Positions 29,252 through 38,125 of a DNA stretch of 64,000 nt are shown here, piece by piece. This stretch comes from Litchfieldia alkalitelluris (GTDB lineage Bacteria; Bacillota; Bacilli; Bacillales; Salisediminibacteriaceae). Within the stretch, counting starts at the first letter, position 1. The number at the start of each line of letters is the position of its first letter. The stretch lies in contig NZ_KZ119600.1 in the NCBI RefSeq assembly GCF_002153425.1, forward strand, positions 3,540,120-3,604,119, written 5' to 3'. The notes under the pieces were generated by a model, which was not told the origin of the DNA, did not search any database, and worked only from the letters and a program-made list of their open reading frames with translations. Position numbers and translations under genes: made by a program.

Positions 29252-29402
29252 TTGATAGCCACCTCGCTTTATTATTACTATCATGACTTATTTTTCAATA
29301 AATTTCAATAAAAAATCATTCCGACTACCCTAAAAATACCCACTAATTACCACAAAAAATAAAAATAACATAGGTCAACCTAATAAATAGGAGGTGGTCT
29401 TG

Positions 29403-30113
29403 ATGAAAAAACGTATTTCATCCATCCTAGTCACAAGTTTATGTATAACTATTATGAGTGGCTGTGGTACCAATGAAGAAAGCGCAGACGGAGCAAGGGG
29501 ACAGCAGTTAGATTTTTTAAGAGGATACCAGCAACCTGAAAAGCACTTTGTCATAAACCGAAGCGCCAATACTGACTTCGACCAATATTCTCGATTTGGA
29601 TTTGGGCGATATACTGATAACATTGCTTTAGGTAACAATGATGAGCAACCCTATGCAGTGTACGACCGTTCCCTAATGGCCGAAACGATTGGTCAACTCA
29701 CTGCTTCTCTTAGGGAGATTAATGAAGCTGCTGCATTAGTGACTGACCATTATGTTTTAGTCGCTTATGATTCAAGGGATAATAACGGCGATAATGATGA
29801 AAAAAATAGAGACTATATAGCTACTCAAGTGAAAAATACGGCTTACTCTATTGTGCCTGCATATTATGACGTATATGTGAGTGACGAGCCAACGATGATG
29901 ATTGAGCTCGAAAAATTCAGAGGGTTATCACCTAAAGATCAAGATTATAGAGGTTCCTTAAATGCTACCATTGAGGAGATGAAACAATCGCCACAAGGAG
30001 AAACAATTAACTTCAGTGACGATCGTATGTCCCAATCTGAAGATCTAGAGAACATTGATGACAATCAAGATATTAATACTAATCGAGCAGGTAGCATGAT
30101 GTTCAGGGATTAA
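29403..30113 (+). CDS. yutC: YhcN/YlaJ-type sporulation lipoprotein (YutC-like)
   Basis: A 236-residue lipoprotein. The signal ends in the lipobox IMSGC (Cys about residue 21). The centre (AALVTDHYVLVAYD, and AYYDVYVSDEP followed by MMIELEKFRG) matches the YhcN/YlaJ spore lipoprotein family. The C terminus is acidic and rich in Asn/Asp. AGGAGGTGG lies before the ATG at 29403. Location between yutD and lipA supports the name yutC, which is given from memory of gene order. Expected on the forespore membrane. Confidence 0.82.
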   Translation: MKKRISSILVTSLCITIMSGCGTNEESADGARGQQLDFLRGYQQPEKHFVINRSANTDFDQYSRFGFGRYTDNIALGNNDEQPYAVYDRSLMAETIGQLTASLREINEAAALVTDHYVLVAYDSRDNNGDNDEKNRDYIATQVKNTAYSIVPAYYDVYVSDEPTMMIELEKFRGLSPKDQDYRGSLNATIEEMKQSPQGETINFSDDRMSQSEDLENIDDNQDINTNRAGSMMFRD

Positions 30114-30125
30114 CACTATATTGAT

Positions 30126-30152
30126 ACCGGGCAAAAATCGCCCGGTTTTTTT
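30126..30152 (+). terminator. terminator of yutC
   Basis: CCGGGC, 7-base loop, GCCCGG, TTTTTTT. Confidence 0.9.
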
Positions 30153-30154
30153 AT

Positions 30155-30226
30155 GGTATCTTTGGTATCTTTGGTATCTTTGGTATCTGTGGGATCTGTG
30201 GGATCTGTGGTATCTTTGGTATCTGT
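30155..30226. repeat. 9-bp minisatellite, eight copies
   Basis: Eight uninterrupted copies of a 9-base unit, GGTATCTTT with variants GGTATCTGT and GGGATCTGT. Being a multiple of three it keeps a reading frame (Val-Ser-Leu repeats), but there is no ribosome site and no support for a gene. Confidence 0.9.
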
Positions 30227-30245: not shown

Positions 30246-31659
30246 ATAGTGCCCGGGGCGGTTTTATGCGCAGTGATTCGGGCACTATTTCTTGGTTATA
30301 GTGCCCGAAGACTATTCAGCACTCGTGTTTCGGGCACTATCCCTTACTCATAGTGCCCGAAGCTCCTTCAGTACTCGGGCTCCGGGAACTATTTCTTACT
30401 CATAGTGCCCGGAGACTATTCAGCACTCGGGCTTCGGGCACTATTTCTCGCTCATAGTGCTCGGAGCACCTTCAGCACTCAAGCTTCGGGAACTATTCCT
30501 CGCTCGTAGTGCCCGAAGCTACTTTAGGAATCGGGCTTCGGGCACTATTCCTTATTCATAGTGCCCGAAGACTATTCAGCACTCGGGCTTCGGGAACTAT
30601 CCCTTACTAATAGTGCCCGGAGATACTTCAGCACTCGGGCTTCGGGCACTATTTCTTACTCATAGTGCCCGGAGACTATTCAGCACTCGGGCTTCGGGCA
30701 CTATTTCTCGCTCATAGTGCTCGGAGCATCTTTAGCACTCGGGCTTCGGGCACTATCCCTTACTCATAGTGCCCGGAGATGCTTCAGCACTCGGGCTTCG
30801 GGCACTATCCCTTACTCATAGTGCCCAGAGCTACTTCAGTACTCGGGGTTCGGGCACTATTTCTTGATCATAGTGCCCGGAGCTACTTCAGTACTCGGGG
30901 TTCGGGCACTATTTCTTGATCATAGTGCCCGGAGATGCTTCAGCACTCGGGCTTCGGGAACTATTCCTTACTCATAGTGCCCGGAGATGCTTCAGCACTC
31001 GTGTTTCGGGAACTATTCCTTACTCATAGTGCCCGGAGATGCTTCAGCACTCGTGTTTCGGGCACTATTTCTTGATCATAGTGCCCGAAGCTACTTCAGG
31101 AATCGGGCTTCGGGAACTATTCCTCGCTCATAGTTGCCCGAAGCTACTTTAGGAATCGGGCTTCGGGCACTATTCCTTATTCATAGTGCCCGGAGACTAT
31201 TCAGCACCTGGGCTTCGGGTACTATTTCTCGCTCATAGTGCCCGAAGCTACTTCAGGAATCGGGCTTCGGGTACTATTTCTCGCTCATAGTGCCCGAAGC
31301 TACTTCAGGAATCGGGCTTCGGGTACTATTTCTCGCTCATAGTGCCCGAAGATGCTTCAGTAATCGGGCTTCGGGCACTATCCCTTACTAATAGTGCCCG
31401 AAGACTATTCAGTACTCGGGTTTCGGGCACTATCCCTTACTAATAGTGCTCGGAGCACCTTCAGCACTCAAGCTTCGGGCACTATCCCTTACTAATAGTG
31501 CCCGGAGCTACTTCAGTCTCGGGGTTCGGGCACTATTTCTTGATCATAGTGCCCGAAGCTACTTCAGTCTCGGGGTTCGGGAACTATTTCTTGATCATAG
31601 TGCCCGGAGCTACTTCAGTCTCGGGGTTCGGGCACTATTTCACTCTCATAGTCCCAGCC
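30246..31659. repeat. array of 27 tandem 52-bp palindromic units
   Basis: Units start at 30246 and recur every 52 bases; unit 18 has one extra base and the last three are 51 bases. Each unit begins ATAGTGCCCGAAG (or CGGAG) and, after a loop of about 14 bases, closes with CTTCGGGCACTAT, so each can form a 13-bp hairpin. A linker of about nine bases (such as TTCTCGCTC or TTCTTGATC) joins units. A partial unit, ATAGTCCCAGCC, ends the array. Units 20 and 21 are identical, as are 4 and 9, which points to recent duplication. It lies between the 3' ends of yutC and lipA. Open frames within it are translations of the repeat. It is not a CRISPR array. Confidence 0.95.
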
Positions 31660-31671
31660 AGAGAATCTTTA

Positions 31672-31710
31672 AATAAACAGAAAGAGGACATCAACAGACG
31701 CCCTCTCTCT
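31672..31710 (-). terminator. terminator of lipA
   Basis: Minus strand AGAGGGCGTC, TGTT loop, GATGTCCTCT, TTCTGTTTATTT; the stem needs two G-U pairs. Confidence 0.75.
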
Positions 31711-31717
31711 AACTCTA

Positions 31718-32626
31718 TTATTTCGCTTCCCTTTGCTCATCAAAGCCATGTTCCTCTGCTGCATTAACCTGCTCATCAGCATGATAAGAAGAGCGAACTA
31801 ATGGACCAGACTCACAATGCTTGAAGCCTTTACTCATAGCAATTTCACGTAATTCATTAAATTCTTCTGGAGTCCAATATTTTTTTATCTTTAAGTGACT
31901 TTTCGTTGGTTGTAGATATTGACCAATCGTCATAATGTCTACGTCAACAGACCTAAGATCATCCATCACCTGTATAATTTCTTCTTTCGTTTCTCCAAGA
32001 CCTATCATTAGACTTGATTTGGTTGGAATCTTAGGTTGCATTTCTTTTGCTCTTCTTAAGAATTCTAAGGATCGACGATAAGTTGCCCTGGCACGAACTT
32101 TTGGTGTCAGCCTCTCAACCGTCTCAATATTGTGATTAAGAATATTTGGGCGAGCATCCATTAAAATCTTAAGGTTTTCCTCTTTTCCACCCATGTCTGA
32201 TGGCAAGACCTCAACAGTAGTAAATGGACTCTTACGACGGATAGCACGGACAGTTTCAGCAAAAATTTCAGCACCGCCATCTTTTAAGTCATCTCTCGCT
32301 ACAGCAGTAATAACTGCATGCTTAAGACCCATTAGCTTCACTGACTCAGCTACTCGTTCTGGCTCTTGACGGTCTAATTCATTAGGAAGACCAGTATTTA
32401 CAGCACAGAATCTGCAAGCACGTGTACAAACATCCCCAAGAATCATAAAGGTTGCTGTCTTTCTTTCTGCCCAACATTCATGAATATTAGGACAACGTGC
32501 TTCTTCACATACAGTATGTAGTTTTTTCTCACGCATCATCTTTTTTAATCCTGTATAAGAATCATTAGTATTCAGTTTTATTTTCAACCATTCAGGTTTA
32601 CGGATATATTCTTCGTTGTTTGCCAT
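31718..32626 (-). CDS. lipA: lipoyl synthase
   Basis: Radical SAM enzyme that inserts two sulfur atoms into protein-bound octanoyl groups. The auxiliary cluster cysteines are Cys40, Cys45 and Cys51 ([12 protein letters not shown]) and the radical SAM triad is Cys67, Cys71 and Cys74 (CTRACRFC). The C-terminal SSYHADE serine that ligates the auxiliary cluster is also present. 302 residues, full length. GGAGCGTG precedes the ATG. It stands between the palindrome array and lytH, in the B. subtilis order. Confidence 0.98.
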
Positions 32627-37914: not shown

Positions 37915-38125
37915 GTTGGTAAGTAGTCCTCCACTATAGTTATCCACTAAAGTGACAGTGCTGTACTTATTCAATACAGCCCCAGCTAGAAAAACCTAGA
38001 CAAGTTTTTCTGCTTCGGCAAAGTTCCCTTTCAAAAGCTTTCAACGTCGTCTCAACTCCAGCTTTATACTTATTAACTTCGCGCCTCTACCCCATCAATG
38101 ATGAGGTACTTCATACCGATTCAAT
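37915..38125 (-). ncRNA. lysine riboswitch (L box)
   Basis: The minus strand carries the conserved L-box blocks in order: GTAGAGGCGCG (near 38080-38090), AGTATAAAGCTGGAGT, GACGTTGAAAG, GAAAGGGAACTTTGCCGAAG, CTGGGGCTGTATTGAATAAG and CACTGTCAC, closed by GAGGACTACTT, which pairs with AAGTACCTC at the 5' side. The order and spacing match the B. subtilis lysC leader as I recall it. Bound lysine would switch off the downstream transporter gene. Confidence 0.95.

Follow-up and report, generated by a model that had tools for sequence, protein, structure and literature searches.

The partition site sopC of the F plasmid is an array of 43-bp repeats with an inverted repeat, and in REPIN/RAYT systems two short conserved copies lie in inverted orientation around a variable middle, with several families in one genome. 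BIMEs are characterized as extragenic, regularly spaced elements of alternating orientation, which form tandem arrays and reach a high copy number, each REP being itself a palindrome (PMC2817692). For Stenotrophomonas, inter-REP segments of varying length and a pairing that is preserved by complementary changes are described (PMC2817692), and the tags of REPs are given as GTAG or CGTC (PMC3733652).

The window, i.e. the whole stretch of 64,000 nucleotides from Litchfieldia alkalitelluris that was analysed, harbors a tandem array of 27 units at 30246-31648 (TRF score 1490, no strand assigned), in which a 12-bp arm TAGTGCCCGAAG is followed by a loop of 17 bp, the inverted arm CTTCGGGCACTA and a linker of 11 bp, with a period of 52 bp. 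The 26 unit-to-unit steps measure 52 bp in 23 cases, 51 bp in two and 53 bp in one. Both the 27 units and the duplications claimed in a preliminary description of this DNA were recovered, the latter by comparison of the units: unit 20 is identical to unit 21 and unit 4 to unit 9, and units 4-5 are similar to units 9-10. The location between two convergent genes, which had also been stated there, was confirmed. The gene on the left encodes a YhcN/YlaJ-family sporulation lipoprotein and is yutC-like (29394-30113, plus strand; PF09580, 1.7e-24), and the gene on the right is lipA, encoding lipoyl synthase (31718-32626, minus strand); both face the array with their 3' ends. A hairpin CCGGGC..GCCCGG followed by a T run (30127-30152, plus strand), which was read from the sequence without a terminator scan, is probably the terminator of the left gene, and the array is therefore not required for this function. 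An AGAGG..CCTCT hairpin with a T-rich stretch after lipA (31676-31712, minus strand), read in the same way and weak, is a possible second terminator. Between the left terminator and the array lie about eight copies of a 9-bp tandem repeat of the TGGTATCTT type (30154-30226, no strand assigned), which is distinct from the array.

A coding role was rejected, since 52 is not divisible by 3 and none of the arrays is overlapped by a gene with a score above 40. Rfam at gathering scores matched only 16S rRNA and a lysine riboswitch (37916-38097, minus strand) in the whole window, with no match at the array. The single hairpin around 25360, to which the array had been linked, reads AGTGCCCAATA..TTGGGCACT and turned out to be a lone terminator-like hairpin that has neither the CGAAG part nor the 52-bp frame. 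An assembly artefact is unlikely, as a related genome that consists of a single contig (G002) has such arrays too.

Throughout the window's genome, the arm ATAGTGCCCGAAG occurs 153 times in forward and 116 times in reverse orientation, and a DNA search with the window array gave 83 matches, which were grouped into about 26 places. From arrays of at least four units, leaving out smaller remnants, we cut 444 units with such arms (type A) from 25 arrays, the units being chosen by an arm filter (up to 3-4 mismatches of 12), which favours conserved arms. By DNA similarity, 43 more places were identified in the same genome, some of them short remnants; the arms are related to type A at 20 of these and unrelated at 23. 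Types B and C, which have arms such as TTTAATTGCCCGAAGC and TTTATTTTACCTTTAC and a period of 52 bp, adjoin A arrays or stand apart; searches with one C and one B array matched further places in the own genome, and the same two queries had no match in eight relatives at E 0.001. Type D (TATCTCACGCGAG and TATCGAACGCGAA) is unrelated in sequence and again has a period of 52 bp; the corresponding search revealed 23 places in the own genome according to our grouping and none in the eight relatives. The tally by search is 26 places for A, 20 for B/C and 23 for D, and arrays reach up to about 50 units in one register.

Some of these types meet within one array. At 832968-833072, an A array gives way to a B array, and CCCGAA keeps its column of the 52-bp register across the junction. 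Hybrid units combine an A left arm with a B right arm at 1375029 and a C left arm with an A right arm at 1841239, both in register within about 1 base by eye; a further one joins C and A at 4468147, where the A and C dyads are about 4 bp out of line, and another at 133566 comes after a 51-bp step. Other sequence lies between the A and B/C arrays at 1093418, 1206698 and 4658218.

In 180 kb of this genome, taken as nine arbitrary samples of 20 kb, there are seven tandem-repeat clusters, five of which have a period of 51 or 52 bp; these arrays, three of period 51 and two of period 52, amount to 3429 bases or 1.9%. Extrapolated by arithmetic, the whole genome would contain about 135 arrays of either period (Poisson ~44 to 316), to which period 52 would contribute about 54 (Poisson ~7 to 195), and the number of A, B/C and D places found by search agrees with this. 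Period-51 arrays with tight hairpins (loop ~5-7), located at L093 (218870-219475), L054 (1604046-1604214) and L098 (4300118-4300268 and 4301295-4301659), look like a class apart from the 52-bp frame.

In samples of the relatives, 51/52-bp clusters account for 6/12 in G002, 3/11 in G005, 1/2 in G003, 2/3 in G006, 2/2 in G008 and 0/3 in G001, and in G002 the period is 104 in two additional clusters and 157 in a third. A targeted stretch of G004 contains a 52-bp array of 3.2 copies and of other sequence 3' of upp (L177, 815-982), where the own genome has an A array (L059). No 51/52-bp array was found in the 36 kb of G001 DNA examined or in two short targeted stretches of G007 (9.5 kb). In total, seven of the nine genus genomes carry 51/52-bp arrays, and 19 of the 40 tandem-repeat clusters in 760 kb of seven genus genomes have a period of 51-52 bp (14 exactly 52, five 51), compared to none of four clusters in other genera of the family, for which 15 genomes were sampled with 20 kb each (300 kb). 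A type A array used as query had no relative in the eight other genus genomes even at E 0.1. Since 51/52-bp arrays recur in the genus and the type A array has no relatives there, the frame is common to the genus and the sequences are not. Among GTDB contigs, from which records of the own genome are possibly absent, the arm-pair pattern retrieved a single stretch, a lone Paenibacillus palindrome. A phage or plasmid origin was rejected, with no occurrence of the arm-pair pattern in viral contigs and no blastn match to plasmids and phages.

From this we conclude that the arrays are a real and large class within one genus, which is undescribed as far as our searches show; a search of open-access literature gave no account of 52-bp arrays in this group. 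The preliminary description had proposed a search for the arm palindromes across the genome and its relatives; 25 A arrays were found here, and 51/52-bp arrays of other sequence in six of eight relatives. The array that it described stands, not as a single special locus but as part of a genome-wide and genus-wide class.

The constant frame is made up of a pair of inverted half-sites, each about 14 bp long, together with a loop and a short linker, and totals 52 bp. Over all clusters with type A arms, 435 of 451 loops have a length of 17 bp and 437 of 443 linkers one of 11 bp, seven loops being scored as 3 due to an extra arm-like match within the loops of one array (L042). Steps of exactly 52 bp make up 414 of 426 in type A, with seven of the other twelve resulting from the same extra match, and 281 of 293 in the other types. 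In the loops and linkers of 419 A units, we counted 1902 substitutions. Bacterial indels and substitutions occur at a ratio near 1 to 10, so that many more length variants would be expected than were seen. At 10.4 bp per turn, 52 bp equal five helical turns by arithmetic. If the half-sites are taken to extend from about 3 to 17 bp on either side of the linker dyad, their midpoints are ~20-21 bp apart across the linker (two turns) and ~31-32 bp apart across the loop (three turns). We infer that the half-sites may share one helix face, a phasing that depends on the chosen half-site borders and has to be seen beside the existence of period-51 arrays.

Between the consensus sequences of the 25 A arrays, identity is 91% in the arms, 41% in the loops and 42% in the linkers, compared to 25% for shuffled loops, after a best-fit orientation of the arrays, which raises the loop figure. 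The loops of the A arrays are thus related, although far diverged. Within arrays, diversity was determined as the frequency at which units deviate from the consensus of their array, as a function of the distance to the linker dyad, which was set by sequence complementarity alone. This covered 48 arrays of period 52 in which five or more units were usable, after units matching the consensus at fewer than 30 of 52 positions had been dropped. Half of these arrays are A-like, and the 24 others (15 from the own genome, four from G002, two each from G005 and G003, one from G008) were taken without an arm filter, but 11 of them are related B/C arrays of the own genome. At positions 4-16, a range picked after inspecting the diversity profile, the diversity of the A-like arrays is 0.045 versus 0.151 in loop and linker (lower in 24/24), and that of the other arrays, from five genomes, is 0.056 versus 0.145 (lower in 21/24, the remaining three being without half-site contrast). 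The observed contrast of half-sites minus the rest is -0.089, compared to a minimum of -0.043 in the null of 2000 sets of random axes. A mirror test about the dyad gave a weak signal in the A arrays (mean rank 0.395, z 1.8) and a clearer one in the other arrays (mean rank 0.291, z 3.6). Because the units within one array share their history, the contrast implies that the half-sites are under selection in place or subject to a bias that acts on them alone.

The two arms of a unit do not change together. Among 5772 arm-pair cells of type A, 879 are changed on one side and 31 on both sides, compared to 84.6 two-sided changes expected by independence, and 17 of the 910 changed arm pairs are compensatory, i.e. 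restore Watson-Crick pairing. Many of the one-sided changes are the A/G and T/C variants that are common at one position and result in G-T or A-C oppositions. Changes confined to one side are tolerated, and two-sided changes fall below the chance level, a pattern that fits a reading of each arm singly as double-stranded DNA. Compared to shuffles, one unit of type A from the window array folds with a z of -6.1 and one D unit with a z of -3.4; one B unit, the arms of which do not pair, folds no better than its shuffles (z -1.0). The hairpin as the conserved unit was rejected because of the few compensatory changes and the shuffle-like folding of the B unit. Indeed, the preliminary description was right that the arms differ without changes in the partner, which now extends to 444 units in 25 arrays, and that this points to homogenisation as DNA rather than RNA pairing (17/910). 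What is conserved is, however, the spacing and the inverted half-sites instead of the hairpin.

Regarding gene context, which was assigned by a home-made gene caller at array sites that were mostly targeted and are non-random, 30 of 41 arrays are located in co-directional, 11 in convergent and none in divergent gaps, a zero that depends on one weak ORF next to the array at 1227015. The other gaps of at least 100 bp comprise 135 co-directional, 26 convergent and 49 divergent ones. With stricter gene scores, at which 2 to 5 sites at fragment edges were left unclassed, the divergent sites are 1/39 (background 40/186), 2/39 (31/161) or 1/38 (23/133); by arithmetic, the first of these comparisons has a chance near 1 in 1000. 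Divergent gaps are avoided as array sites, not excluded, and the arrays are mostly located 3' of at least one gene. The suggestion that the array lies where it does least harm is mostly borne out by these numbers, divergent sites being 0/41, 1/39 or 2/39 compared to 17-23% of the other gaps of at least 100 bp. In all seven relatives that have lipA and the YhcN-like gene as neighbours, a short stretch without an array separates the two genes; in the eighth relative, G001, the YhcN-like gene was not found beside lipA. Among the genomes compared, the array at lipA is present in the own species only. As the site is without an array in these 7/7 relatives, the window array is either new in its lineage or was lost elsewhere.

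Type D arrays occupy a terminus-side region of the own genome (1.85-3.55 Mb) that is avoided by A, B and C. In this interval, which was picked after inspecting the data, lie 2 of 46 A/B/C places, both small, versus 11 of 23 D places (Fisher 4e-5; p 0.018 in a neighbour-label permutation after merging near sites). The sign of the GC skew switches between samples at 2.0 and 2.55 Mb, and we therefore assign the interval to the terminus side and the adjoining left arm.

An element with OrfA (98 aa) and OrfB (281 aa), which we take to be IS3-like, or its ends are found in or between 52-bp arrays at L046 (831154-832555), L053 (1375125-1376523) and L061 (~4658215 and ~4658401). Its end TGTCAAGAAAGTAGA is present exactly at four places, all array-associated, and with up to two mismatches at three places elsewhere, in DNA that was biased towards arrays. 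At two places, the element directly follows a half-site that ends in AAATAAA or AATTAAA.

The explanation that we favour, and to which the sequences lend about an even chance, is that the arrays are phased DNA half-sites for a putative multivalent DNA-binding protein, which are spread and rewritten quickly. A putative dimeric or polymerising DNA-binding protein of the genus would occupy the half-sites cooperatively and build an extended nucleoprotein patch at the 3' ends of genes, which could serve chromosome organisation or the separation of neighbouring genes. The units would multiply within an array by unequal exchange or slippage, arrays would arise at new 3' ends in each lineage, and the half-site sequence would be replaced in place as specificity drifts. 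We infer the protein, the common helix face, the role and the manner of spread; the fixed spacing and the constrained half-sites, which are features of phased sites, were both observed. In this form, the DNA-binding array of the preliminary description is kept as the best reading, with the single locus and the hairpin replaced by a genus-wide spacing and inverted half-sites. Several points speak against phased sites: the unrelated half-sites of A/B/C, D, E and the relatives need several proteins or a loose specificity, three of the five arrays in the own-genome samples are of period 51 with a tighter hairpin and fit more poorly, no 51/52-bp array was found in the examined parts of G001 and G007, and the dyads at 4468147 are offset by about 4 bp.

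The main rival, which could hold together with protein binding, is a selfish REPIN/BIME-like element: an enzyme would recognise the arms as ends, and the units would hop between genes and then multiply in tandem without benefit to the host. Overall, we consider this somewhat unlikely. It would account for the lineage-specific occurrence with the array-free lipA site in 7/7 relatives, and for the dozens of extragenic loci with arms kept and loops free. In its favour are also the PF01797 proteins, which are present in all nine genus genomes, and some of which, having ~180-290 aa and low scores, we take to be RAYT-like. Three RAYT-like genes of relatives (L149, L153 and L157) adjoin palindrome arrays of 91 or 101 bp; these arrays form another array system of the genus, for which the adjoining gene offers a candidate enzyme. 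The flanks of five genes in the own genome and seven in two relatives were examined. However, the 350 bp on each side of the four RAYT-like genes of the own genome, PF01797 proteins being the only ones sought, contain other palindromes, such as GTTACCTGGTAAC flanking one gene, or none, and never the arms found in the 52-bp arrays. Of 35 family genomes, 26 have PF01797 proteins, including 17 of the 26 genomes outside the genus, yet the 15 samples of 20 kb from other genera are without 51/52-bp arrays. Furthermore, arms are conserved inside resident arrays, which is needless for idle copies, the few compensatory changes speak against hairpin recognition, and the lengths between arms are nearly invariant. 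Filing the arrays under REP/RAYT was rejected after the PF01797 search in genus and family and the examination of flanks, as no link to the arms emerged; a REP-type family with an assigned transposase would, by the preliminary description, have contradicted its reading, and the four RAYT-like genes of the own genome are without these arms. If the arrays are selfish, they represent a repeat system outside the REP/RAYT scheme.

We regard it as clearly unlikely that the arrays are neutral minisatellites of a duplication-prone lineage, which inherited period and symmetry from one old array. The genus samples do contain other tandem repeats of many periods (20-21, 41, 74, 101, 128, 161 and more), A and B/C arrays are in one register where they join, and the window array has multi-unit duplications, all of which speaks for such an origin. 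Half-sites are, however, about three times less variable than loop and linker of the same arrays, and an inherited period should have drifted while the loops fell to 41% identity, but no drift was seen. In G001, units of 160/161 bp are repeated in two to three copies with 99-100% identity at L169 (5382-5689) and L180 (13739-14261), which suggests recent tandem growth or spread of these repeats.

It is very improbable that the array acts as RNA or as single-stranded hairpins, i.e. as 3'-end stabiliser, terminator or processed small RNA, since the location mostly 3' of at least one gene and the good folding of the A unit and moderate folding of the D unit (one each) are opposed by the scarcity of compensatory and two-sided arm changes, by the B unit, a type with constrained arms as well, which does not fold beyond its shuffles, and by the terminators of their own that both neighbour genes seem to have, as read from the sequence.

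Compared to BIMEs, the 52-bp arrays are likewise extragenic, of alternating orientation, regularly spaced, tandem and of high copy number. In contrast, the arm is no palindrome here, its changes are rarely compensated, the lengths are fixed and the four RAYT-like genes of the own genome are without the arms; by eye, a tag GTAG or CGTC was not found at one end of the A, B/C and D units. The inverted conserved short arms, the variable middle and the several families in one genome resemble REPINs, whereas no RAYT-like gene was found flanked by the arms and the arrays extend over up to about 50 units in one register. Like sopC, the arrays are tandem, have units of comparable length with one dyad in each, and are read as protein sites; they differ in occupying dozens of chromosomal loci with several sequences per genome, and no partition genes were noticed by eye among their nearest neighbours. 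CRISPR arrays also have partly palindromic repeats at regular spacing, but the middle is here common to the units of an array and there are no unique spacers. Head-to-tail copies and multi-unit duplications are shared with minisatellites or VNTRs, whereas one period common to arrays of unrelated sequence and the constrained half-sites are not.

Bacterial repeats are normally recognised by their sequence, whereas here the frame, 52 bp with two inverted half-sites, is constant and the sequence varies by array, region and species. If they are bound by protein, the arrays would add a large layer to chromosome organisation in one genus that has not been described before, and bacteria would offer a model of how satellite DNA and the proteins binding it evolve together. 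A possible, though for now tentative, extension of the phased-site explanation is a bacterial satellite-DNA system of about a hundred arrays in a five-turn frame, which would make up 1-2% of the genome and would be bound by fast-evolving, genus-specific proteins. Specificity and half-sites would change together, each species or chromosome region having its own set of half-sites, in a manner that we liken to eukaryotic satellite DNA and the proteins that bind it.
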